This document shows, one piece after another, positions 3,912-30,743 of a DNA stretch of 35,325 nucleotides. The stretch's first letter is position 1. Each line of letters begins with the position of its first letter. Below the pieces are notes generated by a model. That model was not told where the DNA came from, made no database searches, and worked only from the letters and a program-made list of their open reading frames with translations. Origin of the DNA: Flavobacteriales bacterium. Its GTDB lineage: Bacteria > Bacteroidota > Bacteroidia > Flavobacteriales_D > Sanyastnellaceae. The stretch covers positions 1-35,325 of the forward strand of contig JADFAK010000217.1 in the NCBI GenBank assembly GCA_015665315.1. The letters are read 5' to 3'. The translations under genes and the position numbers were made by a program.

Positions 3912-3996
3912 GCCTTGGCCGACGAGTTAATAGCATTTTAATTTGGAAAACCTTTTGGCTATTTCGACGTATAAATTGTGACCCAAGAATTATAAC

Positions 3997-5534: not shown

Positions 5535-6514
5535 TAGAGCTTGGCTAGTTCCGACTTCAACAAGTCGATATTAACGATGGTGACGGGGTCTTGCTTGCCT
5601 ACAATCGCAAGGTGGTAGGAGAACCAATCTCCAAAATGAATCAAGTAAAACATGCGGGCCAACTTGCTGTCGCCTTCGGCTTGAATCGTTTCGACTAGAT
5701 CTACTTTTTTGGTAAAAATCCCACGACATATTTCTGTACGCACGGCATTTCTGTCGTATTCGAGTCCGTCGGAAAGTATGAGTACCCCCAAGTTGTTATT
5801 GGCTGTTTCCCATCCGATGAGCTCGTTGTGGTTCATTTCGGGGATGAGTCCGTGCCAACAAAGTTTCTTGCCGTTCTCGTTGATTTGCTGTCGCCATCTT
5901 ACGGCGACGCCTTCCAATCGAGCTTCGGTGTAGAGAATTGGTAGGCGATCTACGAATTGCTCGGCCAATTTGAGGGCTTTGGTACCGATGTTATCTTGAG
6001 ACGCGGTCAATTGCTTGACAATGGCTTCGAGGTCCTTTTCAAAATCTCCAGCCCATAGTCCGTTGAAATCCAGAATGAACAATTGCTGAATCAAGGAATA
6101 TGCGAGCATCGATCGTGGAGGATTACCGCCAGGAATGATGATGGTGTCTAGCTTGTTGGCCTCTGCGATTTCTTTTACTTTTCCTCCTGAAGTGACGCAT
6201 ACAATTTGGCATTTTCGCTCCAGGGCTACTTCCAAAGCAGCCAAGGTCTCCTCGGTACCCCCAGAATAACTCGATACGATCACCAAAGTATGCTCATCGG
6301 CCCAATTGGGGATGCTGTACTCGTTGTTGGTCAAAAAAGGAATGGTGCACGAGTCGCCCACAATTTGCGACGCGATTTTTCCGCCAATTCCCGATCCACC
6401 CAAACCGGTGGCCAGAATTGTACGAATACCCGTTTTCTTCGTGAGTTTGGCCTTGCGACCAATTTCAAGGGATTCTAGAATGTGAGTAGGAAATGCTTCA
6501 ATAAGGCTTCTCAT
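5534..6514 (-). CDS. Bifunctional phosphoglucose/phosphomannose isomerase (SIS domain)
   Basis: This 326-aa SIS-fold protein interconverts glucose-6-P or mannose-6-P with fructose-6-P, in glycolysis/gluconeogenesis and sugar-nucleotide supply. Visible signatures are GLGGSGIGG at 37-45, NEYSIPNW at about 64-71, the sugar-phosphate binding SSYSGGTEET at 81-90, GNPPRSMLAYS, and MNHNELIGWE in the C-terminal domain (PF10432 type). The length matches the short bacterial/archaeal bifunctional enzymes, not the 550-aa classical PGI. It is first in a two-gene operon with lipB, and a near-perfect -7 box lies about 20 bp upstream. Confidence 0.92.
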   Translation of the reverse strand: MRSLIEAFPTHILESLEIGRKAKLTKKTGIRTILATGLGGSGIGGKIASQIVGDSCTIPFLTNNEYSIPNWADEHTLVIVSSYSGGTEETLAALEVALERKCQIVCVTSGGKVKEIAEANKLDTIIIPGGNPPRSMLAYSLIQQLFILDFNGLWAGDFEKDLEAIVKQLTASQDNIGTKALKLAEQFVDRLPILYTEARLEGVAVRWRQQINENGKKLCWHGLIPEMNHNELIGWETANNNLGVLILSDGLEYDRNAVRTEICRGIFTKKVDLVETIQAEGDSKLARMFYLIHFGDWFSYHLAIVGKQDPVTIVNIDLLKSELAKL

Positions 6515-6564: not shown

Positions 6565-9500
6565 CTATCGGATGAGAGTAACTGAACCGTAGAATTCAAG
6601 CGTCTTTGGTTCGTGGGCAGGAAGGATGAGCAAGCGCCAAGTGTACACGTCATTTGACGCATAATGGCTGCCCGATTTCACGTCACCTACCCATGGAGCA
6701 TTGGGATCATTTGTTTCGAAGATAAGTTCGCCCCACCGGTTCCAAATCTGGAAAGTGAATTCACTCATTTCAAAGCCCGACCATTGTGGGAAGAAGACAT
6801 CGTTGATACCATCGCCATCGGGAGTGAAAGCATTCGGCACGTAAACGAGCATGGTCGCGTCGACAAAAACAGTTTGATGGATGCTGTCCAAACAACCAAA
6901 TTCATTCACAACGACAAGCGACACGTCGTATTCACCGTAGTCAATAAAATTGTGGAGCGGATCAGGCTCCAGCGCTTGAACGCCATCACCAAAATTATAC
7001 AACCATCCATCGGCGCCGATCGAGGTGTCTTCAAATTGGATCGAAGGATCACCAAAAGCAGCGTTGTTGGCGTCGAAGTTGAAGTCGGCAACGGGCACTG
7101 GCCAAATGGTTAGGTAGTCGGTCACAACAGTATCTGCCGTGCATCCATTGGACGAAGTAAGTACCAGCTCAAGGTCAAAAGTACCTGACTCAAGCACTTC
7201 AAGATCTACTGTTTCACCATTGGCCGAGTTGTTTCCAAAATTCCATTCCCATGAGATAATTTGGTAAGGATCGGGAATGGTCGATAGGTCGGTGAGACTG
7301 ATCGTTCCTCCAGCACAAAAGGCCGTATCGCTTATGGCAAAATCAGGCGTTGGAGCAGGGAAAATCTCAATTTCTTGGGTGAGTGTGTCCGCGCATCCCT
7401 GATCGCTCAGTAAGATCAATTCTACCTCGTAAAAGCCATATTGATCGTAGTCATTTTCACCATTTGCGCTTGTCGCTGAGTTCCCATCACCAAAGGTCCA
7501 TTCATAGGAATCAATCGCACCACTTGGGAGGGTCGAAGTATTGGTAAAAGGAATCAGAGCATTGGCGCAGTCGTTGTCAAATTCAAAATCGGCAGTTGGA
7601 TTCGGATATACGTTGAGGTCGACCGTGATCGAGTCCACACAACCTTCGGCAGTTTCAACCAATAATTCGATCGAATACACGCCCCAGTCGTCCAATACTT
7701 GTGTCCAGTTTTGTTGGTCGTAAGTACCGATATTCTCCATATCCCAGGTCCAACTTGTAAGCACGCCGTCTCCAATGGTGGTTTGGTCGAGCAGACTAAA
7801 TTCATTGCCCGCGCAGCCGTCTTCCAGAGAAAATGCCGCGACTGGCGCTTCGAAAATTTCAAAATCTTGTGTGAGGGAATTTATACATCCTGCATCTGAT
7901 TCAAGCTCTACCGAAAAGGTGAGAATCCCCGTACTCCATGTGTCGAGCGGGTCAGGTTGGTAGTCGGAAGAAGTTCCTAGCGGACCGAAATCCCACTCGG
8001 CGCCGGCGATACTTCCATCGGCAATGGTACTTACATTGGTCACCGCGATCGCCTCGTTCACACACGGACTAACCAGCTCGAAAGCAGGCTCTGGAAGGGG
8101 GTTGACTTCTTGAGTTTCCGTCGCGGTATTCACGCAGCCGTTGGCATCGGTAAAGCTGTAGGTAATGTCGTAATCTCCCCAGCCTATTGACGGGTCGAAT
8201 TCGGTTACGTCGACATTGGCCAGACTGTAGGTTCCTAAAAGCGGACTTCCACCTTCGATCGTCGTGACGGGAGCATCTTCGCACAAAGGTGTAAAAGGCT
8301 CCAAAGCAACCACGGGTAAGGCGTAAATTTCAAATGCTGTTGTGTCGCTATTGATACAGCCATTCGCATCGGTGTAGGCATAAGTAATTTCGTAGAGGCC
8401 CGGAGCATTCGAGGGATCGAAGGTAGCTTCTGGAATATCATTGACGGTATAGATGCCTGGATTGTCATTTGGCAGACCACCGGATAGATCAAAGACATCC
8501 TGCTCGTTGCAGATTCCATCGTCCATTGTCAAAGTCACGAGCGGGAGTTGGTTTACCTCAATCGATAAAACTTCGGTCGCTTGGCAGTCGGCATAAAATC
8601 CAGTCACCTCCAGGTCCTGAGATACGGGCGGACTGAGCCAAAATTCTTCGTTGACTTCGGTGTAGACGTAGCTGTCGTCGAGCCATTCGTAGGTCGTTGC
8701 GCCGTCAAGTGTAAAGAGCAGACTATCGCCCGCACAAATAGGCTCCAGCAGGGAAGCATCCATCGTAAATTCCTCCACTTCGATGGGGTTGTCGCATTCG
8801 ATGAGTACGGGACAACCGTTGGCATCGGTCATGATGAGGGACGGGCAATACGTTCCTGGGAAGTCGTAAACGTGCGTGGTGTTGGTGTTACCCACAGGAT
8901 CGCCAAATCCATCGCCGAAGTCCCAGAAATAGTCAAAACTCACGTCGGTAAGATTAAAAGCTTCGAGGTCAACGGTGAAAGGGGCACATGTTACTGTGTC
9001 TAGAATCTGAGTGAACGGTCCGATAACATTGCTGTACTCAAAAATATCCTCTACGAATACGGTATCGGTGCAGCCAAATTCATTGCAAACGACCAATTGA
9101 AGGTCGAACACACCAATAGGGTAAGTATGGAAAACGGTAATTCCCGCTCCAAACTGGTTGTCGCCAAAACTCCATTGAGAGCATTCGACATTTCCTGCGG
9201 TTGTGTTTTCGAATTGGACTCCGAACAGACAGTTATTGATGCTTGCGTCAAAGGTAAATTCAGCAATAGGATTGATGATGTTTACCAAGTCGGGTTGGCA
9301 AACGGTAGTCTGACAACCGACACTATTCTCGGTGGTCAAACAAATATCGTAGGAGCCATTTTCATAGTAAACATGGTAGGCGTCCTCATCCGAACTAGTG
9401 TTTTCTGCGCCAGAAGCAGGATCTCCAAAGTCCCATTCGAAGGAAGTAATATTCCCCAGAGAGGCATTGATTACTTGAATACTGTCTCCTTGGCATGAAG

Positions 9501-12222
9501 GGTCCTGAACAACACTGAATTGAGGGGTAGTTGGAAAAACGAGATCCAAAGTTTGAGAAACCGTCGACCCGCACCCAATGTCGTTGTATGCCTGCAAGGT
9601 GACGACATAAGTCGTGTCGTAATTGTAGGGCAAGTCCCAAGTGAATGAAGGAGTGAGTTCGGTACTCGTCGAGCCATCGCTCATAGTCCATTCCCACGTA
9701 TCGAGGTTGGTGCCCGTTGGCTCAAAAAGGAAGGTCACCGGACCGCACGGATCTACAATCGTATAGTCGAAATTGGCAAAGTCCGGGCTACTGTTTACTT
9801 CTATCGCATCGACATAGGTCGTTGTCCCCTCACAGCCGTTTGGATCGATTGTGGTTACGGTAATATCAAAATCTCCAAGGCTGTTGTACTGAATGATAGG
9901 CCAGAAATTGGCGTTTCCTGCATAGGCCGAATCGACCACAGTCGACCCATCGTCTATACTCACATCCCACATGTTGCCCAGCGAATTGAAGTCGGCCGTC
10001 ATGGTCGTACCATTGCCAAAATCGACTTCCCAATAGATATTGTTGGCGTTCGGCGTGAATTCCACGTCCAATGGCGGACAACCGATGTTCGGAGAAAAAC
10101 TCAATCCGGGATCGGGGTCGCTGGCGATAATGGTCGCGCTGTAAATATCCGGACAACCAACATCGTCGTTGATGGCCGTGAGAATTACATTGTAACTACC
10201 TGGATCGGTGTAGGTATGCTCCGGTGTAAGATCGTCGTACACCAAATCACTGCCATCACCGAAATCCCAAATCAAGGAATCGGCCTCGATGGAGTCGTCT
10301 TGGAAGAAAACTGTAAGTCCGTCTCCACAAATAGTCGTCGTGGTAAACAAGGCTACCGGTGGCGTGATATAGATGTATTGGTAATGCGTTTCAAAGCTGC
10401 TGCAACCTTCATTGAAGACACTGATGGTCACATCGTAGTACCCGGTATCTTGGTACTCATGCATGATGCAGTTCTCCAATGCCGAGAGGTTTTGCCAACC
10501 GGTATCATCGCCAAAATTCCATGAATAGGTCACTCCTTCTTGTTCGTCGACACAAAATTCCAAGGGCAAACCAGCACAACTTTCATTGGCTGTGACGTTA
10601 ATGTCTGTGCTAACTTGTGTTTGTACTTCTATCGACTGCGAACTCGTGAAAGTCGCTTCGCAACCGCCCTCGGTTACAATTTCGAGGGTAATTTCATATT
10701 CGCCCAGATCGTCGTAGGAGAAGTCGGGGATTTGGCCTGTTACGTCGATGACATCATCTTCATCAAAGTCCCAATTCCAATCCGTTATCGGATCAAAGGT
10801 GTCTACAACAAGGTCGAAAATATCTACCACCACTCCGGTGCAAATAACTGTCGGATTGCTAAAGAATATTTCCGGTTCGAGGACACTGATGTAATCTTCC
10901 ATCAACACACTCTCTTCACAACCAGTGTCGCTTGTAACGATGAGCTCAACATCGTATACTCCGTAGTCGACGAAGGTGTAAGGAAAGGAAGCATCGGTTG
11001 AAACCAAGCTACCGTTCAGCAGCCATTGGTAGGTGAGGTTTCCGGGCCCCGTGGTGAGGTTTTCGAAGTTCACATCAAATGGAGCAATGCAGGAAATGGT
11101 GGTGTCGGCCTCAAAATCAACTAGCAGCTCTTCAAGAACTTGAATTTCTACCGAGCCGACATTCGAGTGCGAGCAATTTGGTGAATAGGTAACGGTGAGC
11201 GATGGGTAATACAGACCTTCATCGTTGTAGGTAAAGGTAGGATACTCCGAATTCGCATCTTGGTCGCCGTCGCCATCTAAATCCCAAGACCAAGAAACCG
11301 GATTGGGTTGTGTGATATCCGCAAATGAGACAGATGAACCAGCACATATCGTCGTGGGCGTTGTAGGCACATAACCCGCAACCGCTACGTCAAATATTTC
11401 AATTTCTACGCAATCTTCAGTCGCACAACCAATGTCATCAATGGCTGTTACGCACACGTTGTAAATCCCCAAGTCATCAAAAGTATTGGAGACCATTCCC
11501 GGATTGATGGTCGTAAGCGTATTTCCATCGCCAAAGTCGTACACATAGGTCAGGGCCGACGAACCGGCTGCCACATTGTTGAAATCCAAGGCTACAGGTG
11601 GGTTGCAATCTAGGTCGATAGGGGCGGTGATGTCAATCGTTGGAAAGTCGTCTACAACTTGGATAAGCCCCGAAAAGCTGATATCGCTGTAACACCCAAA
11701 TTCATCTTCAATCGAAAAAACTGGAGTGTATGTTCCTGGATCATCGTAGCAAAAAGATGGATTGGCGTCACTTGATATGGTTCCGTCTCCAAAATCCCAG
11801 GCCCACTCGACTATCTGGCCATCGCTTACAATACTCAAGTCTTCGAAATTGACACAAAGCGGATAACATCCAAGCGTCACATCGGCCGCAAAATTGGCCG
11901 TTGGCGGTTGGTGTACCGTGATATAGTCGGTGATGGTGAGGGTTTCACTTCCGTTGATGGTCAAACTTACATCGTAGGCACCTGGCTGTGAAAGGATGTC
12001 GACGTAAAGCGGGGTATTCGAATTCACCGTGCTTCCGTCGGGATAGGTGACGGTCCAAGCATAGGAAGAAATGGAGCCTGCAGGGGGATCGGTAACAGAT
12101 ATAGTTATTCCTAGCGGCGTGCAGCCTTGCGTTTGATTAGCTACAAACGTAAGCTGGCCGTTCATCCCGAAAAACGAGAAAAATACCGCTAAAAATATCG
12201 TAAATCTCATGCCCACTCGCAT
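6565..12222 (-). CDS. Giant PKD-repeat surface protein with gliding-motility-associated/T9SS type-B C-terminal domain
   Basis: This 1885-aa protein has a signal peptide (MRFTIFLAVFFSFFGMNGQ; ATG at 12222 or, equally plausible, at 12210). It contains about 17 PKD-like repeats recognisable by variants of WDFGDG and G-x-Y-x-V-x-L strands. A different module of two roughly 75-aa repeats sits at about residues 1222-1377, each ending in TDANGC. The last ~95 residues begin VYVPNAFTPDGDGIND and include FQIWNRWGELIFET and VYTWRL. This is the CHU_C/gliding-motility-associated domain (TIGR04131/PF13585), a type-B T9SS export signal. The protein is strongly acidic and Cys-containing. It is probably an exported adhesin or matrix protein. 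The gene is monocistronic, with 440 bp of non-coding DNA upstream. Confidence 0.92.
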   Translation of the reverse strand: MRVGMRFTIFLAVFFSFFGMNGQLTFVANQTQGCTPLGITISVTDPPAGSISSYAWTVTYPDGSTVNSNTPLYVDILSQPGAYDVSLTINGSETLTITDYITVHQPPTANFAADVTLGCYPLCVNFEDLSIVSDGQIVEWAWDFGDGTISSDANPSFCYDDPGTYTPVFSIEDEFGCYSDISFSGLIQVVDDFPTIDITAPIDLDCNPPVALDFNNVAAGSSALTYVYDFGDGNTLTTINPGMVSNTFDDLGIYNVCVTAIDDIGCATEDCVEIEIFDVAVAGYVPTTPTTICAGSSVSFADITQPNPVSWSWDLDGDGDQDANSEYPTFTYNDEGLYYPSLTVTYSPNCSHSNVGSVEIQVLEELLVDFEADTTISCIAPFDVNFENLTTGPGNLTYQWLLNGSLVSTDASFPYTFVDYGVYDVELIVTSDTGCEESVLMEDYISVLEPEIFFSNPTVICTGVVVDIFDLVVDTFDPITDWNWDFDEDDVIDVTGQIPDFSYDDLGEYEITLEIVTEGGCEATFTSSQSIEVQTQVSTDINVTANESCAGLPLEFCVDEQEGVTYSWNFGDDTGWQNLSALENCIMHEYQDTGYYDVTISVFNEGCSSFETHYQYIYITPPVALFTTTTICGDGLTVFFQDDSIEADSLIWDFGDGSDLVYDDLTPEHTYTDPGSYNVILTAINDDVGCPDIYSATIIASDPDPGLSFSPNIGCPPLDVEFTPNANNIYWEVDFGNGTTMTADFNSLGNMWDVSIDDGSTVVDSAYAGNANFWPIIQYNSLGDFDITVTTIDPNGCEGTTTYVDAIEVNSSPDFANFDYTIVDPCGPVTFLFEPTGTNLDTWEWTMSDGSTSTELTPSFTWDLPYNYDTTYVVTLQAYNDIGCGSTVSQTLDLVFPTTPQFSVVQDPSCQGDSIQVINASLGNITSFEWDFGDPASGAENTSSDEDAYHVYYENGSYDICLTTENSVGCQTTVCQPDLVNIINPIAEFTFDASINNCLFGVQFENTTAGNVECSQWSFGDNQFGAGITVFHTYPIGVFDLQLVVCNEFGCTDTVFVEDIFEYSNVIGPFTQILDTVTCAPFTVDLEAFNLTDVSFDYFWDFGDGFGDPVGNTNTTHVYDFPGTYCPSLIMTDANGCPVLIECDNPIEVEEFTMDASLLEPICAGDSLLFTLDGATTYEWLDDSYVYTEVNEEFWLSPPVSQDLEVTGFYADCQATEVLSIEVNQLPLVTLTMDDGICNEQDVFDLSGGLPNDNPGIYTVNDIPEATFDPSNAPGLYEITYAYTDANGCINSDTTAFEIYALPVVALEPFTPLCEDAPVTTIEGGSPLLGTYSLANVDVTEFDPSIGWGDYDITYSFTDANGCVNTATETQEVNPLPEPAFELVSPCVNEAIAVTNVSTIADGSIAGAEWDFGPLGTSSDYQPDPLDTWSTGILTFSVELESDAGCINSLTQDFEIFEAPVAAFSLEDGCAGNEFSLLDQTTIGDGVLTSWTWDMENIGTYDQQNWTQVLDDWGVYSIELLVETAEGCVDSITVDLNVYPNPTADFEFDNDCANALIPFTNTSTLPSGAIDSYEWTFGDGNSATSANGENDYDQYGFYEVELILLSDQGCADTLTQEIEIFPAPTPDFAISDTAFCAGGTISLTDLSTIPDPYQIISWEWNFGNNSANGETVDLEVLESGTFDLELVLTSSNGCTADTVVTDYLTIWPVPVADFNFDANNAAFGDPSIQFEDTSIGADGWLYNFGDGVQALEPDPLHNFIDYGEYDVSLVVVNEFGCLDSIHQTVFVDATMLVYVPNAFTPDGDGINDVFFPQWSGFEMSEFTFQIWNRWGELIFETNDPNAPWVGDVKSGSHYASNDVYTWRLLILPAHEPKTLEFYGSVTLIR
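7461..7477 (+). repeat. 17-base identical word, copy 2 of 3
   Basis: Exact copy of the word at 4031-4047 (18 bases identical here, including the preceding c). It lies inside the PKD gene, antisense to coding, where it encodes part of SATSANGEN. Confidence 0.5.
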
Positions 12223-12662: not shown

Positions 12663-14372
12663 ATGAGTCAGCGTTTATCAGAACAAGAAATTCAACGAAG
12701 AGAATCGTTGAATGCTATGCGCCAACTGGGCATTGAACCTTTTCCGGCGGCCCAATACCACGTAGATACTTTGGCTAGTTCTTTGAAACAGAATTTCCAA
12801 GAAGGAAAGCAGGTGTGTCTAGCAGGACGAATCATGATAAAACGTATCCAGGGAAAAGCATCTTTTTGCACCCTCAAAGATTCATCGGGTACCTTCCAAT
12901 TGTACATCAACCGCGACATTCTTTGTCCGGATGAAGACAAGACCATGTACAACGTTGTCTTCAAGAAGTTGCTCGATTTTGGTGACTTTATCGGTATTAA
13001 GGGCGAGACCTTTACTACGCAAGTGGGCGAACCATCGGTCAAAGTTACTGAGCTTACCGTACTTGGAAAATCTGTCAAGCCACTTCCAGTTGTGAAGGAA
13101 GACGAGGATGGAAAAATACACGATGCCTTTACCGATCCAGAATTGCGTTACCGTATGCGTTACGTGGATTTGGTTGTCAACGACCACGTAAAAGATACCT
13201 TCATCAAGCGATCGAAGATTATCAGCGCTATGCGCAAATACCTCACAGACAAGGGTTACCTGGAGGTTGAAACTCCCATTTTGCAGACTATCCCAGGTGG
13301 TGCAGCGGCTCGTCCGTTTATCACCCATCACAACGCATTGGACACACCCCTCTATTTGCGTATAGCCAATGAATTGTATCTCAAAAGATTGATTGTGGGC
13401 GGCTTTGACGGCGTATTTGAATTTGCCAAAGACTTCAGAAACGAAGGAATGGACCGCACACACAATCCGGAGTTCACGCAAATGGAAATGTATGTGAGCT
13501 ACAAGGATTACAACTGGATGATGGACTTTACCGAGTCTATGTTGGAGTATATCTGCATGGAAGTGCACGGTACAACCGACGTAATGATAGGCGAGAATAA
13601 AGTGAGTTTCAAAGCTCCTTTTCCACGTGTGCCCATGATTAAAGCGATTTTGGATCATACAGGAATCGACATTGCCGATATGGACGAGAAAGGATTGCGT
13701 GAAGTATGCGATCAACTCGGAGTGGAACACGAACCTTCGATGGGTAAAGGCAAGTTGATCGACGAGATTTTTGGAGAGAAGTGCGAGGGAAATTACATTC
13801 AGCCGACTTTCATTACCGACTATCCGATTGAGATGTCGCCATTGTGCAAAGTACACCGTGACAATCCCGAACTCACAGAGCGTTTTGAGCTGATGGTCAA
13901 CGGCAAAGAGCTGGCCAATGCCTATTCCGAGTTGAATGACCCGATCGATCAACGTGCTCGATTTGAAGAGCAAGCTGCTTTGTTGGAACGAGGAGATACG
14001 GAAGCGATGTTCATCGATCAAGACTTTTTGAGAGCCCTTGAATACGGCATGCCTCCTACTTCTGGAATGGGAATAGGGATTGACCGACTGACGATGTTTT
14101 TGACCAACAATAGTTCGATTCAAGAGGTTTTGTTCTTCCCTCAAATGCGTCCGGAGAAAGTTGAGGTACTACCTACGCCAGCCGATTTTGTGAATATTGG
14201 AGTGCCTTCGGAATGGGCCGAGCATATTATGGAAGCGGGATACCACGATGTGAACGCGTTTAAGTCGGCAAAAGCCACTGCTATTCACCAACAACTGAAC
14301 GGCTATCGTAAAAAGAACAAATTAGACATCCCTGCAGTTCAATTGGCGGATGTTGAATCTTGGTTGGCTTAA
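12663..14372 (+). CDS. lysS: Lysyl-tRNA synthetase, class II
   Basis: This 569-aa enzyme charges tRNA-Lys with lysine using ATP. An OB-fold anticodon-binding domain (about 50-160) precedes the class II catalytic core. Motif 2 is visible as FRNEGMDRTHNPEFTQME and motif 3 as GMGIGIDRLTM. A C-terminal extension of about 60 residues beyond FFPQMRPE, ending in a helical LADVESWLA segment, is longer than E. coli LysS (about 505 aa) but usual in Bacteroidota. I chose ATG 12663 (MSQRLSEQEIQRRE) over an in-frame ATG at 12603, because the 20 extra residues look like leader sequence and a -7-like box falls inside them. A strong hairpin terminator follows the stop codon. Confidence 0.97.
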   Translation: MSQRLSEQEIQRRESLNAMRQLGIEPFPAAQYHVDTLASSLKQNFQEGKQVCLAGRIMIKRIQGKASFCTLKDSSGTFQLYINRDILCPDEDKTMYNVVFKKLLDFGDFIGIKGETFTTQVGEPSVKVTELTVLGKSVKPLPVVKEDEDGKIHDAFTDPELRYRMRYVDLVVNDHVKDTFIKRSKIISAMRKYLTDKGYLEVETPILQTIPGGAAARPFITHHNALDTPLYLRIANELYLKRLIVGGFDGVFEFAKDFRNEGMDRTHNPEFTQMEMYVSYKDYNWMMDFTESMLEYICMEVHGTTDVMIGENKVSFKAPFPRVPMIKAILDHTGIDIADMDEKGLREVCDQLGVEHEPSMGKGKLIDEIFGEKCEGNYIQPTFITDYPIEMSPLCKVHRDNPELTERFELMVNGKELANAYSELNDPIDQRARFEEQAALLERGDTEAMFIDQDFLRALEYGMPPTSGMGIGIDRLTMFLTNNSSIQEVLFFPQMRPEKVEVLPTPADFVNIGVPSEWAEHIMEAGYHDVNAFKSAKATAIHQQLNGYRKKNKLDIPAVQLADVESWLA

Positions 14373-14385
14373 TACGTTGAACGGG

Positions 14386-14417
14386 AGAGTGCGCTACCAA
14401 GCCAAGTGCGCTCTTTT
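14386..14417 (+). terminator. Rho-independent terminator of lysS
   Basis: A 9-bp stem pairs AGAGTGCGC (14386-14394) with GTGCGCTCT (14406-14414), including two G-U pairs, across an 11-base loop. It is followed by T-rich sequence (TTTTCATTCTTTT). It lies 13 bp after the lysS stop and also abuts the stop of the convergent gene at 14417. Confidence 0.75.
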
Positions 14418-15754
14418 CATTCTTTTACAAGTCTTCTGGTGGCAAGAAGCATTCCTGTTTCCACGAGACTTACATAATAAATACCCGAGGAGAACAAACT
14501 GATATCCAGACTTATGTCCTGTTTCGCCGTGATTCTGGTCCTAAACAATTCTTGACCTTTGGCATTGGTGATAATAACGAGCCCCTCATTCAGGGTATTA
14601 TTGACAATATGACAATTTGAAGAAGCAGGATTTGGGAAAACATGAAAATCTTCTTTGTTTAAGATTATGTCATCGATATTATCTGGAACACCCCATGTCA
14701 CGCTATCGGGATGCAGATGCCAATTCACGATTCCATCCACCTCAAAATTCTCATCACCAGCCCATTCCAAAGCACCGACTACATATAGACGATCTTGAAA
14801 CACGTCCATGTCAAAGACATTGCCGCCAATTCCGTTTTCAAGAGGTTGCCAATGTACTCCGTCAAACCTAGCTATATGGTTCATTTCAGATCCGTCTGAG
14901 AGTTCGGTAAAACTACCCGCAGCATAAATCTGGTCTCGGTAAACACAAATAGCTTTAGCTGCATCATTAAACCCAATGGAACTTAATGGTGTGGTATTTA
15001 CTCCATCAAATTTTGCAATTCCTGGTGATGGTTCGCCATTAACGGTTGAAAACAATCCTCCCACATACATGTACCCGTGATCGGGAAAAGGATAAATTTC
15101 TAGAACTGTGCCCGAGGGGCCAGACTCAACCTCTATCCACTCGACACCATTCCAATGTGCTAGATTGGGAGAAGGAATGGTTCCATTGGCCAGGGTAAAA
15201 TCTCCACACACAAAAATTTCTCCATTATAGTTAATTGCTTTCCGTGGCTCTCCAATAAATCCAGTCACTCCGCCAATATTATTCCATTGATTCCCGTCCC
15301 ACATTCCTACTCTCCACAGCGGTTCCGTTCCACCTAACTCACTAAAACTTCCAACAGCAATAAGTTGGTCCCCAATTACTGAAACTCCATTTACAATTGA
15401 AGAAGGAGATTCTGCTCCACCATCAAGGCCTCTCCATTCACCGTTATAAAATGCGCCAATTGCACCACATTCATCATTGTCTAATTGCTCGTGAAAGCCT
15501 CCAACGAAGATTAGTGAATCACCATATAGCACTATGTCTTCTACTCCTTGAGAATTTGGCAAATCGGACCAACTTTGTCCATCCCATTTGGCTATCCCAT
15601 TAAACCCGATACTATTTACACTTTCGAAGAATCCACCAACAACCAATGTATCATCAATCACCTCCATTACCTGGGGTGATAAGCCAACAAAAATGGCATT
15701 GTCGCATGCTGACCATTGAGACCAAGAGGTCATGGTAATGTCTAATAAAATCAA
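14417..15754 (-). CDS. Secreted propeller-type protein with T9SS type-A sorting domain
   Basis: A 445-aa frame beginning at a TTG. The body is built of repeated segments such as VGGFFESVNSIGFNGIAKWDG, with V-G-[GS]-F and I-A-[KR]-[WF]-[DN]-G motifs about 50-60 residues apart, typical of a kelch-like beta-propeller. The C-terminus has the type-A T9SS sorting domain: FHVFPNPASSN, ITNAKGQELFRTRI, and SGIYYVSLVETG before RRLVKE. The frame stays open upstream of 15754 and encodes IKKLFIILILL, a signal-peptide core. The natural start is therefore probably the codon at 15775-15773. That codon is ATC, not ATG, and would overlap the preceding stop as TAATC. The first ATG, at 15733, would remove the signal peptide. 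Last gene of the minus-strand array. Confidence 0.82.
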   Translation of the reverse strand: MILLDITMTSWSQWSACDNAIFVGLSPQVMEVIDDTLVVGGFFESVNSIGFNGIAKWDGQSWSDLPNSQGVEDIVLYGDSLIFVGGFHEQLDNDECGAIGAFYNGEWRGLDGGAESPSSIVNGVSVIGDQLIAVGSFSELGGTEPLWRVGMWDGNQWNNIGGVTGFIGEPRKAINYNGEIFVCGDFTLANGTIPSPNLAHWNGVEWIEVESGPSGTVLEIYPFPDHGYMYVGGLFSTVNGEPSPGIAKFDGVNTTPLSSIGFNDAAKAICVYRDQIYAAGSFTELSDGSEMNHIARFDGVHWQPLENGIGGNVFDMDVFQDRLYVVGALEWAGDENFEVDGIVNWHLHPDSVTWGVPDNIDDIILNKEDFHVFPNPASSNCHIVNNTLNEGLVIITNAKGQELFRTRITAKQDISLDISLFSSGIYYVSLVETGMLLATRRLVKE

Positions 15755-15774
15755 TATGATGAATAGCTTTTTGA

Positions 15775-16185
15775 TTATTTCACGATGATTTTTCCTGATT
15801 TCATTTGAATTTTTGAAATAGACACTTCATAGGTGTATACTCCTTTGGCAATTTCTTCAAGTTTAATCAATCCAGGCCCGAAAAATGAATCCCCTTCCAA
15901 ATCAATCTTCATGACATTCATGCGGTTTGAGCCATTCGGATTTTCGTCGAAGTAGAATACGACATAACCATCCTCAAGAACTTCAATCGAACGCGCCACC
16001 TCAGGGTGGCCATTTCCTGGCACACCAAATCGCTTATTCCAGGTGATTTGACCATTTAAAAGTGATGGGCAAAAGGAAAATACAAGCAGAACCAGCACAA
16101 GGATTCTGCTTGTATTGTGCTTATCGAATAATTGTGAAATTCTCGCTTTCAACTTATTGGTTATTGACCAGTAAAGATAGAACAT
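15775..16185 (-). pseudogene. Internally deleted paralogue of the two downstream-array T9SS proteins (136 aa)
   Basis: From ATG 16185 the frame encodes the same N-terminal stretch as the neighbouring 16222-17805 gene (FSFCPSLLNGQITWNKR, GNGHPEVARS, EDGYVVF). After KIDLEGDSFF it jumps directly to a short sorting-domain-like tail (LEEIAKGVYTYEVSISKIQM, ending in GKIIVK). About 380 residues of the propeller body are absent. The tail resembles the orphan fragment at 19382-19579 (FAKGVYIVTLL). The frame is intact and might still be made and exported as a mini-protein, so 'truncated gene' is as fair a label as 'pseudogene'. At the site equivalent to the ATG of the 19407 copy it has GCG. Confidence 0.7.
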
Positions 16186-16630
16186 GAGTTCAAAGAGCAA
16201 GTCGCTCTCTATCAAGTAGATTTATTGGATTATTAGTCTTTCACTTTCCAAAACCTGGTTGTTTCGCTCAAGATTAATCATATAGATGCCAGTTTCGAAT
16301 CCATCAATGGGAATGATGATTGTTGAATCGCCTCCATGAACTTGTATTTTCTTGACCATTCGGCCTTGGGCGTCATATATCGCAAGTGAATGTGCTTGCA
16401 AACTGGCCAATTCAGAAATGTAGACATTGAGTAAATCTCCATTTGCCACCGGGTTGGGTCCTATTTTCATCAAACCTTCTTTGCGACGAAATTCTTCGAC
16501 TCCTACACCGCAGCCAGGGACAAAACATCCCATGCTGTCTAGCTTGTACACCCAGATGTCTTGGGAGGGAGAATTGGGTTCTGGAGGAAGAGTAATCATG
16601 TATCCACAACCAACGTAGCCGCCATCAGGA
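15940..16630. repeat. Junction-centred duplicated block, copy 1
   Basis: This block covers the last ~400 bp of the 16222-17805 gene, the intergenic junction and the first ~240 bp of the truncated paralogue. It aligns with 17560-18250 at a constant offset of 1620 nt, with only scattered substitutions. By eye, identity is above 85-90 percent near the junction and falls off outward. Confidence 0.75.
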
Positions 16631-17805
16631 GTAGGTTCCGTATCGAAGTTGTAATGCAGACTACCTAATATATCACTGTATTGGAAGCCACGTTCCCATA
16701 TTTGAGTTCCATCCGGTGCAATTTTACGAGCAAATCCTCTTGCCTGACCTGTCTCATTATGTTGACTTCCTGAGAGAATAATATAGTTAGAATAGTCTTC
16801 TTTTACATTAAACGTTCCTTGATTCTCATTCGGTTCACCATATGTGTTTTCCCAAATAATTGAGCCGAATTCAGGATCAATTCTTATTAGTCTTGTGACT
16901 TCATAGTCAGTCATACCCACCTCACTATCAAATTCTGCAGCACCAAAGAGGATTTCATCATTTGACATAACGAGGGGAACGGCCCAGCCACTATTGTGTT
17001 CAAAGTCATCGTAGGTCATGTCCCACATCATTTCTCCTTCGTAGTCAATTTTAATAATTCTGGGTGCATTGTTTCCTCCCAAATTGAGCTCTTTTGCTCC
17101 TCCGATATAAATACCATCGCCAGGCATCTCAGCCAAAGCAAAACCATAATCTTCATCGGACTCAAGGTCTCCATAATAATTCGTCCAAATATGATCGCCA
17201 TTGCTTTCGAATAAAGCGACCATAATTTGAAGATTTAAATTATCAATGTCACTGTAGCCCACCAAAGCAATTGTACCATCGGCTAATTCAACAGCATCTC
17301 TTCCAACTGTCCAATTGAGTGGATTGCCTATTTTTCGAGTCCAAAGCGTATCAAGCTCGCTATTCCACTTTGTAAGACAAGCATAGTTGATCGTGTCTCG
17401 GAATCCGCCACCAAGAACAAACTCACCGGCTTCGGTTTGGTCAACCGGATCCATCCATCCCAGATAGTAAGTATTTGGGCTCACAGACCAGGACTTTGTG
17501 AAGACTGAATCTCCATTTAGGTCAAGCTTCATCACATTGTTGCGATTTGTTTGGTCGGCGTTTTCATCAAGAAAAAACACAACATAACCGTCCTCAACAA
17601 CTTCCACTGAACGTGCCACTTCGGGGTGGCCATTTCCTGGTACACCATATCGCTTATTCCATGTGATTTGACCATTTAAAAGTGATGGGCAAAAGGAAAA
17701 CACAAGCAGAACCAGTAACAGGATTTTACTTGTATTGTGCTTATCGAATAATTGTGAAATTCTCACTTTCAACTTATTGGTTGTTGACCAGTAAAGATAG
17801 AACAT
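16222..17805 (-). CDS. Secreted repeat protein with T9SS type-A sorting domain, array paralogue B
   Basis: From ATG 17805 this is 527 aa (TTG 17835 and GTG 17766 are alternative starts). A long N-region precedes the hydrophobic core ILLLVLLVFSFCPSLLNGQ. The body has repeats around W-[ND]-[KS]-x-[LY] and [ED]-D-G-[YGF]-[VI] segments, like other outer-membrane-exported beta-propeller proteins: DGYVVFFLDEN, GEFVLGGGFRDT, DGTIALVGYSD, GDGIYIGGAKEL. The tail carries a type-A T9SS sorting domain, with KIGPNPVANGDLLNVYISE, the turn IYDAQGRMVKKIQV and TGIYMINLERNNQV. It is paralogous to the 17842-19407 protein: nearly identical at the N- and C-termini, less so in the middle. The molecular function is unknown. 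Confidence 0.85.
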   Translation of the reverse strand: MFYLYWSTTNKLKVRISQLFDKHNTSKILLLVLLVFSFCPSLLNGQITWNKRYGVPGNGHPEVARSVEVVEDGYVVFFLDENADQTNRNNVMKLDLNGDSVFTKSWSVSPNTYYLGWMDPVDQTEAGEFVLGGGFRDTINYACLTKWNSELDTLWTRKIGNPLNWTVGRDAVELADGTIALVGYSDIDNLNLQIMVALFESNGDHIWTNYYGDLESDEDYGFALAEMPGDGIYIGGAKELNLGGNNAPRIIKIDYEGEMMWDMTYDDFEHNSGWAVPLVMSNDEILFGAAEFDSEVGMTDYEVTRLIRIDPEFGSIIWENTYGEPNENQGTFNVKEDYSNYIILSGSQHNETGQARGFARKIAPDGTQIWERGFQYSDILGSLHYNFDTEPTPDGGYVGCGYMITLPPEPNSPSQDIWVYKLDSMGCFVPGCGVGVEEFRRKEGLMKIGPNPVANGDLLNVYISELASLQAHSLAIYDAQGRMVKKIQVHGGDSTIIIPIDGFETGIYMINLERNNQVLESERLIIQ

Positions 17806-18250
17806 GAGTTCAAAAAGCAAGTCGCTCGCTGGCAAGTAGATTCATTGGATAACAAGTCTTTCACTTTCCAAAACCTGGTTGTTGCTCTCAAGATTAATCA
17901 TATAGATGCCAGTTTCGAATCCATCAATGGGAATGATGATTGTTGAATCGCCTCCATGAACTTGTATTTTCTTGACCATTCGACCTTGGGCGTCATATAT
18001 CGCAAGTGAATGTGCTTGCGAACTGGCCAAGTCAGAAATGTAGATATTTAGTAAATCTCCATTTGCCACGGGGTTAGGTCCAATTTTCATCAAGCCCTCT
18101 TTCTTGCGAAATTCTTCTACTCCCACACCACAGCCAGGGACAAAACATCCCATGCTATCTAATTTGTAAATCCAAAGGTCTTGCGAAGGTGAATTGGGTT
18201 CAGGGGGAATTGTGATCATGTATCCGCAACCAACATAGCCTCCGTCTGGG
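17560..18250. repeat. Junction-centred duplicated block, copy 2
   Basis: Partner of 15940-16630. It covers the 3' end of the 17842-19407 gene, the junction and the 5' end of the 16222-17805 gene. Confidence 0.75.
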
Positions 18251-19407
18251 GTGGGTTCTGTGTCGAAATTGTAATGAATACTTCCGAGCACATCACTGTA
18301 TTGAAACCCCCTGTCCCAAAGCAATTCTCCTTCCGACGATATCTTTTTCAAGAATCCTTGGGATTGCCCTGTTTCATTTGCTTGGTCACCTGAGATAACA
18401 ATGTTTCCGCTAAAATCTTCTTTGACATTAAAACTTGCTTGATTTCTATTCGCTTCGCCATATGTGTCCTCCCATAGAATTGAACCATCTTGAGAATCAA
18501 CACCGACCAATCTGGTTACATCGTATTCATAGAATTCATCTTCATAATCAAACTGGTTAGCGCTAAAATAAAGTTTTCCATCGCTTGTTGCTAATGGTAC
18601 AGCCCATCCATTGTTGTGATCAAAATCATCGTAGATTTCGTCCCAAACAAGGTTACCATCGTAATCAATTTTAATAATCCTGGGGGCATTGATCCCACCA
18701 AGAACCAATTCTATTCCCCCGCCAATGTAGATTCCGTCACCTGGAATTTCAGTAACTACAAAACCATAATCTTCATCGGACTCAATGTCTCCATAATAAT
18801 TCGTCCAAATAAAATCTCCATTGCCTTCGAACAATGAAACCATAATTTGAAGATTCAGATTATCTCTGTCACTGTAGCCCACCAAAGCGATTCTACCATC
18901 CGATAGTTCAATTGCATCTCTGCCTGCATTCCAATTCGCGGTATCACCAATTTGTCTAGTCCAAAGCGTATCTAAGTCACTATCCCATTTTGTGAGAAGG
19001 GCATAGTTAATACCGGTTGCTTGGTCGAGATAACCGCCTCCAAGTACAAATCCATCATCTTGGGTTTTGTCGGCAGGGTCCATCCAACCTATGTAGTAAC
19101 TATTAGGTGAGTCTGACCATGATTTCGAGAACAATGAATCTCCCTCCAAATCAATCTTCATGACATTCATCCGATTTGAACCATTCGGATTTTCGTCGAA
19201 GTAAAAAACCACATAACCATCTTCCACAACTTCTACGGAACGTGAAACCTCTGGATGGCCATTGCCAGGCACACCATAACGCTTGTTCCAGGTGATTTGA
19301 CCATTTAAAAGTGATGGACAAAAGGAAAATACAAGCAGAACCAGTAACAGGATTCTGCCTGTACCCAAAACTATGTTCCGATTATCTAACAACTGTGAAT
19401 ATCTCAC
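17842..19407 (-). CDS. Secreted repeat protein with T9SS type-A sorting domain, array paralogue A
   Basis: This 521-aa protein from ATG 19407 (MRYSQLLDNRN) has a signal peptide core ILLLVLLVFSFCPSLLNGQ. The body of repeats matches paralogue B: DGYVVFYFDENPNGSNRMN, DDGFVLGGGYLD, DGRIALVGYSDR, GDGIYIGGG. The C-terminal type-A T9SS domain begins KIGPNPVANGD and ends with ESERLVIQ. Its start codon lies inside the end of the orphan sorting-domain fragment at 19382-19579 in another frame, so its promoter must lie upstream of or within that fragment. It is the first full gene of the array and has the cleanest start, so it may be the parental copy. The function is unknown. Confidence 0.87.
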   Translation of the reverse strand: MRYSQLLDNRNIVLGTGRILLLVLLVFSFCPSLLNGQITWNKRYGVPGNGHPEVSRSVEVVEDGYVVFYFDENPNGSNRMNVMKIDLEGDSLFSKSWSDSPNSYYIGWMDPADKTQDDGFVLGGGYLDQATGINYALLTKWDSDLDTLWTRQIGDTANWNAGRDAIELSDGRIALVGYSDRDNLNLQIMVSLFEGNGDFIWTNYYGDIESDEDYGFVVTEIPGDGIYIGGGIELVLGGINAPRIIKIDYDGNLVWDEIYDDFDHNNGWAVPLATSDGKLYFSANQFDYEDEFYEYDVTRLVGVDSQDGSILWEDTYGEANRNQASFNVKEDFSGNIVISGDQANETGQSQGFLKKISSEGELLWDRGFQYSDVLGSIHYNFDTEPTPDGGYVGCGYMITIPPEPNSPSQDLWIYKLDSMGCFVPGCGVGVEEFRKKEGLMKIGPNPVANGDLLNIYISDLASSQAHSLAIYDAQGRMVKKIQVHGGDSTIIIPIDGFETGIYMINLESNNQVLESERLVIQ

Positions 19408-19579
19408 TTTCTACTATTTGGTTATCAACCAGTAAAGTTACGATATAGACCCCTTTGGCAAATCGTTGCACATCAATTTGCTCGAAGCCTCGAAGTTGCC
19501 CGTACTCTTTATTAAATACAATCTTTCCGTTCGAATCCCGAATATATTCTAACGCGTGAAAGCACGGGTGTTGTTTCAA
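19382..19579 (-). pseudogene. Orphan T9SS type-A sorting-domain fragment
   Basis: A short frame whose last ~55 residues look like the end of a type-A sorting domain: IRDSNGKIVFNKEYG, a QRFAKGVYIVTLLVDNQIVE strand pair, then SEIFTVVR and a stop. No signal peptide or cargo domain precedes it; the sequence upstream to 19832 is unrelated. It is most simply the 3' remnant of a deleted T9SS cargo gene. Its 3' end is homologous at DNA level to the leader of both downstream paralogues (tttactggt-n-aaccaa and gaaagtgaga-n-ttcaca blocks), so it seems to have been carried along during duplication. Confidence 0.65.
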
Positions 19580-19832
19580 TTTTTCAAGCGATATTGTCTG
19601 AAATCATCTATGGATGATCAAATTCAATTTTGGTTGTTTTTTAAAACTATAGCCAAAACGACTCCCTGTTTATTGGCTAGTCGGCAAGGATTATTACTCG
19701 GAGAAAGTTATTGGAATCGAACGTGCAATTACATGCCAATATTCTGGCTTTTTAAGCAATAAAGAATAAGTTCGCTATTCTTGCTGCTCAATTGACCAAT
19801 GTCGAATATTGGCTAGCTTAATACCAGCTTAA
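19580..19832. other. Non-coding region upstream of the aminotransferase gene
   Basis: No gene recognised. It contains a 10-bp inverted repeat (GCCAATATTC 19735-19744, GAATATTGGC 19804-19813). TATTCTTG at 19776-19783 is one base off the -7 consensus and could serve the aminotransferase gene. Confidence 0.35.
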
Positions 19833-20993
19833 ATGAAAGAACTCACCTGCCAAAAGCACCTGTTTTCTCTTCCTGAAGAAGAGGTTTACATCAATTGTGC
19901 CTACCAAGGGCCCATGCTCAAAACAGTCGAGGAAGCCGCCATCGCTGAATTGTTGAAGCGTCGGTTTCCAATTGACATTCAAAAGGATGATTTCTTCGAA
20001 CCAGCCAAAAAGATAAAAGGACTCTTCAGTAAGTTGATTGGAAATCCTGATGCCGATCGTGTCGCGGTAATTCCATCGGCGTCGTACGGATTGGCAGTCG
20101 CTGCGGCCAATATTGACATGAGCGTTCGCAAGAATATCATTGTCGCCGCAGAGCAGTTCCCAAGTAATTTTTACTGCTGGGATCGATTGGCAAAAGAGAA
20201 TGGTGGTCAGATTATCACCGTAAGTCCCACAGACGAAAACAACCGCGGAAAGTCATGGAATGAGGCTATACTTGCCGCAATCGATGAAAACACAGCAGTC
20301 ATAGCTATGGCCAATGTCCACTGGGCCGATGGCACTCGATTTAACCTCAAAGCAATCGGCGAAAAAGCACGCTCTTGCGGAGCCAAACTGGTAATCGATG
20401 GCACACAAAGCATAGGAGCCCTGCCTTTCAATGTCGAAGAGATTCGTCCGGATGCGCTGATATGTGCGGGCTACAAATGGCTCATGGGACCTTATGGGAT
20501 AGGTTTGGCTTATTTCAGTGAGACCTTCGATTCGGGCCGACCGATAGAAGAAAACTGGATCAACCGAAAGGATAGTGACCAGTTTGAAAACCTGGTCAAC
20601 TACGAAGATCAATACCAAGATAAAGCAGCTCGCTACAATGCGGGTGAGCACAGCAACTTTATCTATTTGGCCATGCTCACCAAGTCTATTTCGCAGTTGA
20701 TCGAATGGACTCCGGAAGGCATCCAGGAATACTGCCGTGAGCTCACGGCACCAGCAATAGAAGAGTTAAAAGCTATTGGATGTATTATCGAGGATGAGCA
20801 ATACCGAGCGGCTCATTTATTTGGAATTCGCTTGCCAGAAGGATCGAATGTCATGGAGGTGAAAGATGCCCTGGCTCGTAAACGAATTTATGTGTCTATT
20901 CGTGGAAATGCAGTACGCATCGCGCCGCATGTGTACAACGATCGCTCACACATGGATAAGTTTGTCCAAGCGTTGAAAGAGGCCTTGACCTAG
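19833..20993 (+). CDS. PLP-dependent aminotransferase class V family protein
   Basis: This 386-aa cytoplasmic enzyme of fold type I has the class-V signature. D189 and Q192 in VIDGTQSIGALPFN should contact the PLP pyridine ring and phenolate oxygen. K215 in CAGYKWLMGPYGIGL should form the Schiff base. The glycine/serine-rich PSASYGLAVAAANI (about 81-94) fits the phosphate-binding region. The family includes cysteine desulfurases, kynureninases and isopenicillin-N-epimerase-like proteins. No clear desulfurase cysteine loop is seen, so the substrate is undetermined. The stop overlaps that of the convergent M23 peptidase gene by four bases. Confidence 0.88.
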   Translation: MKELTCQKHLFSLPEEEVYINCAYQGPMLKTVEEAAIAELLKRRFPIDIQKDDFFEPAKKIKGLFSKLIGNPDADRVAVIPSASYGLAVAAANIDMSVRKNIIVAAEQFPSNFYCWDRLAKENGGQIITVSPTDENNRGKSWNEAILAAIDENTAVIAMANVHWADGTRFNLKAIGEKARSCGAKLVIDGTQSIGALPFNVEEIRPDALICAGYKWLMGPYGIGLAYFSETFDSGRPIEENWINRKDSDQFENLVNYEDQYQDKAARYNAGEHSNFIYLAMLTKSISQLIEWTPEGIQEYCRELTAPAIEELKAIGCIIEDEQYRAAHLFGIRLPEGSNVMEVKDALARKRIYVSIRGNAVRIAPHVYNDRSHMDKFVQALKEALT

Positions 20994-28778: not shown

Positions 28779-28872
28779 GCGCACGAATTTTGAGTTGAGA
28801 GCCATATTATGAGTGCGAATTTTAAATGACTAGGTTTTCATAGTGTTGGAATATTATTACTATTCTTGGTTT

Positions 28873-30447
28873 ATGCGATCCAATAAACTTGGGCTAATCT
28901 GCCTATCTACAATCATGTTGTTGAACTGCCACTTACAGGCTCAGAATTACAGTACTGAATCCAAAGATGTTGAATTGTGCTTTCGAGCATTTAGTAATGA
29001 TTTAGGAGGCGGAGATGAAGAAATGATAGCAGTGCTTTCTAGAGCTGTGCTAACTGCTCAAGCACACCACAGAGGACGGGCTTATACTTTTACTGTGTAT
29101 GACGATGAGCTAAATGAGTCTTATTCAAAACTCGTCGATACTGAAGATTTTATTCCTGATGATATGACACTCAGTCAAGTCTTCGTCCAAGCAGACAAAG
29201 TCTTTGGATTGGGCTACAAAACGGACCCCAAGAAAAAAACTAACGAGCTTTATTTACTTGAGTTCGACAGGGAAAGATTTCGGTTTCTGCCAGATATGAA
29301 ATTGATCTCCCGCTTAGTTGGAAAGTCATATTTGCGGGATTTTCACCATGCTTTTACCAATGTAGATTTCTCAAATGATGGGTCTAAAGTCTTGATTTCT
29401 CATAGGTTTAATGAAATAAATGGTCTGCCTTCATTTCGAGTTATGACCTTCAATGAAAAGATGCAAATGACCGGAAGCCATGATGTAATATTTAGTCATG
29501 AGGAGAAAAAATTTTTACTGCAGGGGAAGGATTGGGAAATAATAGAAGGTAGTCGCAATATATTTTTTTCGGGAGCGGAGTCACCTTTTGAAATCGATGA
29601 TTTTGGCAATATTCACACCTATGGTCGCGATTTGAAGGATAGAAAGAATTGGTGGTTGTGCACTATTAATAACGGAGAAAAGCATTATTCACGGCTTGAA
29701 TCGAACGTAGATTTTCGAGTTAACCCGATTGAATTATCTCATCCCGAAAATTCCGAGAATACTTGGTTTGTAGGATGGTACTCCGACAAGGTTGAACGAC
29801 AGTCTGGATTAATAATTCAAAAATTGAACGGGGTTGTGCCAGAAGATCCGATTTATCTGGCATGGGACACTAAAACACTTGGAGAATTGATGGACCTGGA
29901 GCTGATTGTAGAAAAATATGAAAAGAAGGGGAAGGGTTTCCATGTGCCAATACACCCATTTAAAGAATGGTATCTTTTGGAGAATGATGAGTTAGTTCTT
30001 GTAATGGAACATAGGTATTTTATTGGAGAGCCCGAGTTTCCTATGCCTGAGACAAGGGGCCGCTTGCTTTTGACCAAAGTGGATTTTCGCGGGAGAATTT
30101 ATCAAACTGAAGTATTGCATAAACAAGGTCAATGCTATCTTTTCATGGAGAATGATAATTTGAATGTATTCTATCAGACGTCCTTTTATGAAGCTAGTGA
30201 AGATTATAATCAGATAAGTCAACTCGGATTGTCATCCTTGCACGACGTTTATGTTTTAAAGCAGGTAAGTTGTTCTGATTTGAAGATTTCGGATAAAATA
30301 GTTTTGTGGTCGCAATATCCGAATGGCCGCTTTCTGTTCAGAGAATATAAATTTGAGTTGAAGAAATTCGGTGATAAAGACCATATAACATGGTCTCAAG
30401 TAGGTGCTCAACGAGGAATATTTTTATTTAAAAGTCTAAAGAAGTAG
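28873..30447 (+). CDS. Unrecognised secreted protein, paralogue 1 of a tandem pair
   Basis: ATG 28873 gives 524 aa with signal peptide MRSNKLGLICLSTIMLLNCHLQAQ (a GTG 30 bp upstream also opens the frame but spoils the signal). I recognise no named family. Landmarks shared with the 30744-32345 protein are DVELCF, GGDE-MIAVL, ELYLLEFD-type strands, RDFHHAF-VDFSND, FEIDDFGNIHTYGR, W-C-I-GE-HYS and IYLAWD-TLG. The last residues are WSQVGAQRGIFLFKSL. Repeating strand-rich segments suggest a beta-propeller. There is no T9SS sorting domain or membrane anchor, so it should be periplasmic or exported by another route. Base composition is more AT-rich than the flanking housekeeping genes. Confidence 0.8.
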   Translation: MRSNKLGLICLSTIMLLNCHLQAQNYSTESKDVELCFRAFSNDLGGGDEEMIAVLSRAVLTAQAHHRGRAYTFTVYDDELNESYSKLVDTEDFIPDDMTLSQVFVQADKVFGLGYKTDPKKKTNELYLLEFDRERFRFLPDMKLISRLVGKSYLRDFHHAFTNVDFSNDGSKVLISHRFNEINGLPSFRVMTFNEKMQMTGSHDVIFSHEEKKFLLQGKDWEIIEGSRNIFFSGAESPFEIDDFGNIHTYGRDLKDRKNWWLCTINNGEKHYSRLESNVDFRVNPIELSHPENSENTWFVGWYSDKVERQSGLIIQKLNGVVPEDPIYLAWDTKTLGELMDLELIVEKYEKKGKGFHVPIHPFKEWYLLENDELVLVMEHRYFIGEPEFPMPETRGRLLLTKVDFRGRIYQTEVLHKQGQCYLFMENDNLNVFYQTSFYEASEDYNQISQLGLSSLHDVYVLKQVSCSDLKISDKIVLWSQYPNGRFLFREYKFELKKFGDKDHITWSQVGAQRGIFLFKSLKK

Positions 30448-30551
30448 TTGTGTTAATTCTTTCGGAGAATTGTACGAGTCTAATTTTGACTTTCAGGTAC
30501 TGGACTTTGTTCTGTCCACGGTTAAATAGTGAGATGGTAGCTTCATATAAT

Positions 30552-30577
30552 TTGACTTCGGAACACGCCCGAGTCAA
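30552..30577. other. Hairpin between the paralogue pair
   Basis: TTGACT and CGG pair with CCG and AGTCAA (one bulged T) across a 7-base loop. No T-run follows, so it is not a standard terminator. The 30448-30743 gap otherwise holds no gene. Confidence 0.35.
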
Positions 30578-30665
30578 CTTTGAGCATAGATCTACAATTA
30601 TGGATGTGTGAATATCTATCATTGGCATTTAAGCGACATGTGTATATTATCTCATCTCTACTAAG

Positions 30666-30673
30666 TAAATTTG
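30666..30673 (+). promoter_or_regulatory. Candidate -7 box (TAAATTTG) for the second paralogue
   Basis: Exact match to TAnnTTTG, 70 bp upstream of the ATG at 30744. No clear -33 TTTG at the right spacing. Confidence 0.4.
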
Positions 30674-30743
30674 CAATATGGGCGACAGCCTTGTTTTATC
30701 CAAGCATTGAAGGACGCCTTTTCTAACCGAAACAACTACCACT

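Follow-up and report, generated by a model that had tools for sequence, protein, structure and literature searches.

Likeness centred on gene junctions in a tandem array of predicted type IX secretion cargo genes, and its probable origin in gene conversion

Why do neighbouring genes of a tandem array resemble each other most strongly at the boundary between one gene and the following one? This question is raised by a 35,325-nucleotide (nt) stretch of DNA from a Flavobacteriales bacterium (GenBank assembly GCA_015665315.1, contig JADFAK010000217.1; the whole stretch is hereafter called the window), which carries an array of genes for predicted cargo proteins of the type IX secretion system (T9SS). 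Two causes of the conserved ends can be told apart here: recombination, which probably accounts for the last 75 codons, the spacer and the leader, and protein constraint, which accounts for the stretch before the sorting domain. The array is transcribed from the minus strand in the order X, A, B, C and D, and its parts are as follows.

19382..19603, minus strand: remnant X, a T9SS sorting domain (TIGR04183, 21.9 bits, E 1.3e-4, just under the cut-off of 23)
17842..19407, minus strand: copy A, 521 amino acids (aa), predicted T9SS type A cargo (TIGR04183, 43.9 bits, cut-off 23)
17845-18081, minus strand: sorting domain of A, from domain placement
16222..17835, minus strand: copy B, 537 aa, predicted T9SS type A cargo (TIGR04183, 41.4 bits)
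16225-16461, minus strand: sorting domain of B, from domain placement
15775..16215, minus strand: copy C, 146 aa, shortened, from alignments
14417..15754, minus strand: gene D, predicted T9SS cargo of another kind with DUF5122 repeats, at the end of the array (TIGR04183, 33.2 bits)

The first-pass annotation had reported that a block spanning a gene junction matches another such block at a constant offset while the middles of the genes have drifted. The match is real. Positions 15940-16630 align with 17560-18250 at an offset of 1620 nt over 691 nt with 76 mismatches (89.0% identity), and random ungapped comparisons of 691 nt within the window reach 25.2% on average and 32.0% at most (n=2000). 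Identity along the genes is not uniform, falling to 69.7% at the same offset over the following 769 nt of the unit (16631-17399). By nucleotide likelihood, the region of high identity is best delimited as 16006-16535, with 92.8% identity inside and 70.5% outside. The middles have indeed drifted, to near 70% identity, but A and B are still alignable across the unit, with an offset of 1620 that becomes 1629 in the 5' part, and the homology extends over the entire unit with a peak at the junction. The three copies described there are two full genes, whose proteins are 76% identical, and a third, C, that is a truncated fusion.

Neutral sites separate exchange from constraint. In the alignment of A with B (514 codons), synonymous divergence (pS) is 0.26 in codons 1-34, 0.715 in codons 35-439 and 0.10 in codons 440-514, and this three-part split gains 39.8 log-likelihood units, compared with at most 17.8 in 200 permutations; these permutations, like those for windowed pS and nonsynonymous divergence (pN) and for the neighbour-pair profiles below, used a coarser grid than the observed value. 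At fourfold-degenerate and spacer sites, only 13 of 124 differ within one contiguous tract at the B/C junction, as against 53 of 92 outside it (0 of 500 permutations), and tract edges within 2 log units lie at 15967-16084 and 16393-16450. The positions of the tract and of a switch of partner in copy C are as follows, without regard to strand.

16009..16447: homogenised tract at the B/C junction (B 3' end, spacer, C 5' end), from neutral sites
17629..18067: partner tract at the A/B junction (A end, spacer, B start), offset 1620, from neutral sites
15970..15973: point at which C changes partner, resembling B on the leader side and A on the body side, from informative sites

Since neutral sites are low in divergence inside the tract and the bodies are near synonymous saturation, protein constraint alone cannot have produced 16009-16447. 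Constraint does account for another part of the 690-nt block. In codons 361-440 of the A/B alignment pN is 0.05 and pS is 0.60-0.76, and because pN is low where pS is high, the likeness of these codons is old and held by selection. Selection on the ends alone was accordingly rejected for the tract and retained for codons 361-440.

Copy C changes its nearest neighbour along its length. Informative sites in the 5' ends of A, B and C mostly join B with C in the leader up to 15973 and almost exclusively join A with C from 15970 onwards, and none of 20000 permutations reaches such a split. Past the switch, the pS of C is 0.44 to A and 0.97 to B (about 18 sites each). Gene conversion is thus indicated by two of its expected marks, a tract of reduced neutral divergence and a switch of nearest neighbour along one copy. 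The proposal of gene conversion centred on the junction is therefore upheld, by the fall in synonymous and spacer divergence together with the switch near 15970.

An ancient tandem duplication, divergence of the bodies and a later conversion of about 440 nt between junctions would explain the array, and we consider this sequence of events quite probable. A 1.62-kb unit, consisting of the end of the older cargo gene X, a T9SS cargo gene of about 520 aa and a short 3' flank, would have been duplicated in tandem, and the bodies would then have diverged to near saturation at synonymous sites. One later conversion event, or a few overlapping ones, may have copied about 440 nt between the A/B and B/C junctions. 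The copied stretch would take in the final ~75 codons of one gene, the spacer, and ~45-80 codons at the beginning of the following gene, counted from the start of its open frame. The exchange would be a non-reciprocal conversion by homologous recombination, copying in either direction, and a single tract between the two junctions explains both the A/B likeness at 3' ends and the B/C likeness at 5' ends. Conversion may act where the copies are most alike, since bodies that have diverged would pair poorly. In tandem paralogs under sequence-dependent conversion, alike parts keep converting and diverged parts escape, a form of concerted evolution, and the array resembles this as a pattern. Copy C would have lost its body and become joined in frame to a 33-aa tail, as its alignment suggests.

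The leaders of B and C hold traces of X, identified by alignment and translation.

17739..17799, minus strand: degenerate X tail within the B leader, with a stop codon inside
16119..16179, minus strand: degenerate X tail within the C leader, with the same stop codon as in B

Because of these traces, the duplicated unit probably began inside the end of X and stopped slightly past the gene, although the history of the duplication is itself a reconstruction. The leaders also carry an imperfect inverted repeat (16081-16122 and 19322-19363, 42 nt, 71% complementary).

Several observations weigh against a single junction conversion. The stretch 15973-16449 contains 33 scattered differences in 477 nt, so that the exchange is not recent and could comprise several events. 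The leader region is alike in all three copies, and an exchange with A may also have occurred. The evidence comes from one genome, neither a strain nor an outgroup carrying the array having been found among 59 other genomes or in the GTDB scan described below. Among paralogs of related bacteria the junction is not always the target, since one pair has a homogenised middle (L061), another set is patchy (L059) and a third shows nothing (L051).

Unequal crossing-over between diverged A-type and B-type genes could have made the third copy and duplicated one junction exactly. Crossing-over inside tandem genes does duplicate a junction, a third, shortened copy is present, and the 3' end common to A and B and the 5' end common to B and C would follow. 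However, this process predicts one full unit alike and B similar to C across their shared N-terminus, and the observed tract covers only ~440 nt. It also predicts a B-like C past 15970, where C is in fact A-like, so that an extra exchange from A to C would be needed. Crossing-over is therefore disfavoured as the source of the block, and we regard it as rather unlikely. Chimeric assembly of the draft genome (219 contigs) might be suspected because a draft assembly with repeats is at hand, but no direct exact repeat of at least 97 nt occurs in 14400-19620 and the differences are scattered through the tract, which makes such an artefact scarcely conceivable. Selection on the signal peptide and sorting domain alone would keep the ends alike in codons 361-440 and would thus explain a portion of the 690-nt block. 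However, synonymous and non-coding sites are alike too in the spacer and the final 75 codons, and the sorting domains of seven other neighbour pairs in the same genome have diverged at synonymous sites, as set out below, making selection alone very unlikely.

The first-pass annotation had also suggested that the conserved ends offer a way to swap surface modules. A dedicated system of this kind, exchanging modules by recombination at constant ends as in antigenic variation, would be in line with two genes on different contigs of a relative (G006) that share a C-terminal stretch of 333 nt at 97% with bodies 33% identical in amino acids, with the patchwork copies of another relative (G081), and with C, which is an N-terminus with a foreign tail. 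On the other hand, body pS near saturation means that A/B body swaps are infrequent, Tandem Repeats Finder finds no tandem repeats in the window, a single imperfect inverted-repeat pair occurs in the leaders, no recombinase is found among the 12 window proteins run against Pfam (from 58 listed open reading frames (ORFs)), and windowed pN/pS gives no sign of positive selection. A dedicated swapping system is hardly credible on this evidence. The bodies of A and B are 72% identical, and for this pair the suggestion is unsupported; an A-like N-terminus fused to a foreign tail is seen only in the shortened C. As for the further claim that the exposed body diversifies, the bodies have drifted, but apparently not adaptively, since body pN is 0.17 against a pS of 0.71. 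Positive selection on the body was rejected as windowed pN lies well under pS; at this windowed level the values suggest that the A and B bodies have been under long purifying selection rather than fast diversification.

Gene conversion between the junctions thus remains the preferred explanation, and other gene pairs of the same genome serve as controls. The genome (G000) has at least 150 type A sorting domains, scored among 303 candidates, and from these matches 27 sources were picked that yielded 20 same-strand homologous pairs. Twelve pairs were profiled; the eight omitted are mostly C-terminal-only matches or repeat pairings of sets already used. The sorting domain is present on both members of nine profiled pairs, on one member at L074, and on neither member at L070 (a heme-enzyme family) or in the pair at 28.8-32.3 kb of the window. 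The last 80 codons have a pS of 0.15 both in A/B and in a pair on contig C22, with bodies at 0.71 and 0.68, respectively. In the other seven of the nine pairs the same codons have a pS of 0.53-0.91, in the three pairs with the domain on one member or none 0.75-0.87, and in 10 dispersed paralog pairs 0.73-0.93. Because the control pairs have diverged there, low synonymous change is not an inherent property of the sorting domain. The DNA of the B sorting domain matches itself and A alone in the genome. On contig C22, an exact 111-nt tandem duplication lies behind another T9SS cargo pair (L052, 7981-8202), and further pieces resembling the array junction lie at 8282-8577. The second tandem pair in the window (28843-32345; 534 and 533 aa, 44% identical) is diverged throughout and has no Pfam or NCBIfam match at E<=0.001.

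Among T9SS cargo paralogs of the related genomes compared, exchange recurs. Thirty-nine family members in 10 genomes, the present one included, gave 92 within-genome pairs, of which 82 were kept and 10 dropped for having fewer than 300 aligned codons. The choice of relatives was not random but followed their protein similarity to A or alignment A1, and members were limited to 13 scored candidates per genome. A homogenised C-terminal end (last-80-codon pS <=0.2, body >=0.4) is found in 8 of the 82 pairs, namely the window pair, the C22 pair, two in one cluster of G012, two in G081, one in G008 and one in G006, and the reverse pattern in one pair, in G045. Any 60-codon window with pS <=0.2 at an overall pS >=0.35 occurs in 12 pairs from six genomes; the pairs are not independent, and G081 supplies five of these 12. 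On average these low-divergence segments take up 84% of the ninth tenth of the gene and 65% of the last tenth, and at most 8% of each of the first three. In this small, similarity-chosen sample, exchange therefore leans to the C-terminal end.

Individual cases differ in extent. The G006 pair is alike not only over its 333-nt C-terminal stretch but also over 52 nt at the 5' end (87%). The paralogs of G081, a genome assembled in 2 contigs (L083, L084 and L085), comprise four patchworks in which leader groups disagree with C-terminal end groups. The tandem pair with the homogenised middle (L061, 3513-6721, G045) has zero synonymous differences in codons 101-336 while its ends have diverged, which inverts the pattern of A/B. 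L051 is without exchange, L059 is patchy, and at L057 and L060 the homogenised part is far longer than the sorting domain. As a tentative suggestion, somewhat on the doubtful side, the sorting-domain end may be an exchangeable module in this bacterial family, with conversion repeatedly overwriting the C-terminal ends, and sometimes the leader, of tandem or distant genes while the bodies evolve independently; concerted evolution would then affect the export signals but spare the bodies. If the C-terminal lean holds in a large unbiased sample, the sorting domains of paralogs would be useless for dating duplications, and cargo bodies could gain new export ends by recombination. The process at the present junction is most likely ordinary, familiar recombination, and the lean among relatives is the more interesting part. 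The observation is sound and its likely cause ordinary, and the tendency of conversion among T9SS cargo paralogs towards the C-terminal end merits a census.

A G012 locus (L058) contains eight copies of a ~200-nt composite intergenic repeat made of short repeated units and a palindromic piece (120-390, 2050-2330, 3900-4180, 5690-5990, 9280-9540, 11040-11360, 12980-13345 and 14850-15190), all in the same orientation though the adjoining genes point both ways. A role of this repeat as a recombination site was considered and left, Tandem Repeats Finder having found nothing in the window.

Comparable exchanges are known elsewhere. According to excerpts of the report on PE_PGRS17 and PE_PGRS18 of tubercle bacilli, gene conversion was shown there directly by strain comparison, and the intergenic sequences do not follow it (PMC1762029). 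The present array is similar in that neighbouring paralogs of one family would exchange a tract non-reciprocally, and differs in that it is known from one genome and its tract runs over two genes and their spacer. Surface proteins of P. gingivalis, some with T9SS C-terminal domains, undergo domain rearrangement and allelic exchange for which the authors, in the excerpts of their article, invoke gene conversion (PMC5266723). These are cargo of the same secretion system, with a mosaic of variant domains that does not follow the strain tree; there the exchange is between strains and in variant domains, and here it is within one genome, at the export end and the junction. In the excerpts of PMC5808330 and PMC5714932, gene conversion is named in reference titles only. 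The present pattern was not found in literature on gene conversion or concerted evolution with T9SS, or on the sorting domain with tandem duplication, among titles and abstracts with most subscription journals outside the scope.

The array belongs to a larger block in the window.

14373..20989, no strand: 6.6-kb block of the array and a class V aminotransferase gene, between convergent lysS and M23 peptidase genes

The convergent lysS and M23 neighbours occur in six of 35 other genomes searched (G001, G006, G010, G012, G015 and G016), and D, A and the aminotransferase were not found in the lysS-M23 stretches of these six. In G001, the single other genome of the genus compared, a contig end interrupts the M23 gene, whose last part adjoins lysS with 23 nt between the stop codons. 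About 850 nt separate the two genes in G010, with no ORF judged a gene; one ORF of ~200 aa lies between them in G006, G015 and G016, and several other genes in G012. In G002, lysS and M23 are on one strand with other genes between. Since the block is absent at the lysS-M23 place of G001, it would represent either a gain in the present lineage or a loss in G001. A search of 59 other genomes found no close relative of A; the best-scoring match has 30% identity over most of the length (G006), and the best in G001 has 26%. A scan of GTDB, from which the own or very near genomes may be omitted, gave two loci, both matching residues 50-80 only. Within this scope, orthologous arrays elsewhere were discarded as a candidate.

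The remaining features of the array concern its incomplete copies, its start codons and the fold of the bodies. Apart from the shortened C and remnant X, no incomplete copy was seen in the array. X sits upstream of A, its end overlapping the A open frame, and scores 24.9 bits against Pfam PF18962 (cut-off 27). Copy C consists of the family leader and N-terminus (113 codons) followed by the 33-aa foreign tail (15775-15876); it has no NCBIfam match at E<=10, and the tail searched alone has no Pfam match at E<=10. The type A sorting domain exceeds its curated cut-off in A, B and D and in neither C nor X, so that A, B and D are predicted type A cargo by their C-terminal domain, their export being likewise predicted. 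A hydrophobic leader with NGQ at its end is recognised by eye in A, B and C, their start codons being uncertain. Copy A probably starts at GTG or TTG, since no ATG is seen ahead of its hydrophobic leader. Gene D also lacks an ATG before its hydrophobic leader, and may actually begin in a stretch overlapping the end of C (15754-15790). A two-sequence AlphaFold model has a mean pLDDT of 51, and nothing was rested on its PDB matches, many of which we take to be beta-propeller proteins; a weak PQQ_2 match, below its cut-off, is in line with this assumption and was not relied on. Elsewhere in the window, 6565-12222 encodes a protein of 1885 aa in which many PKD domains occur together with a CHU_C type IX signal domain.

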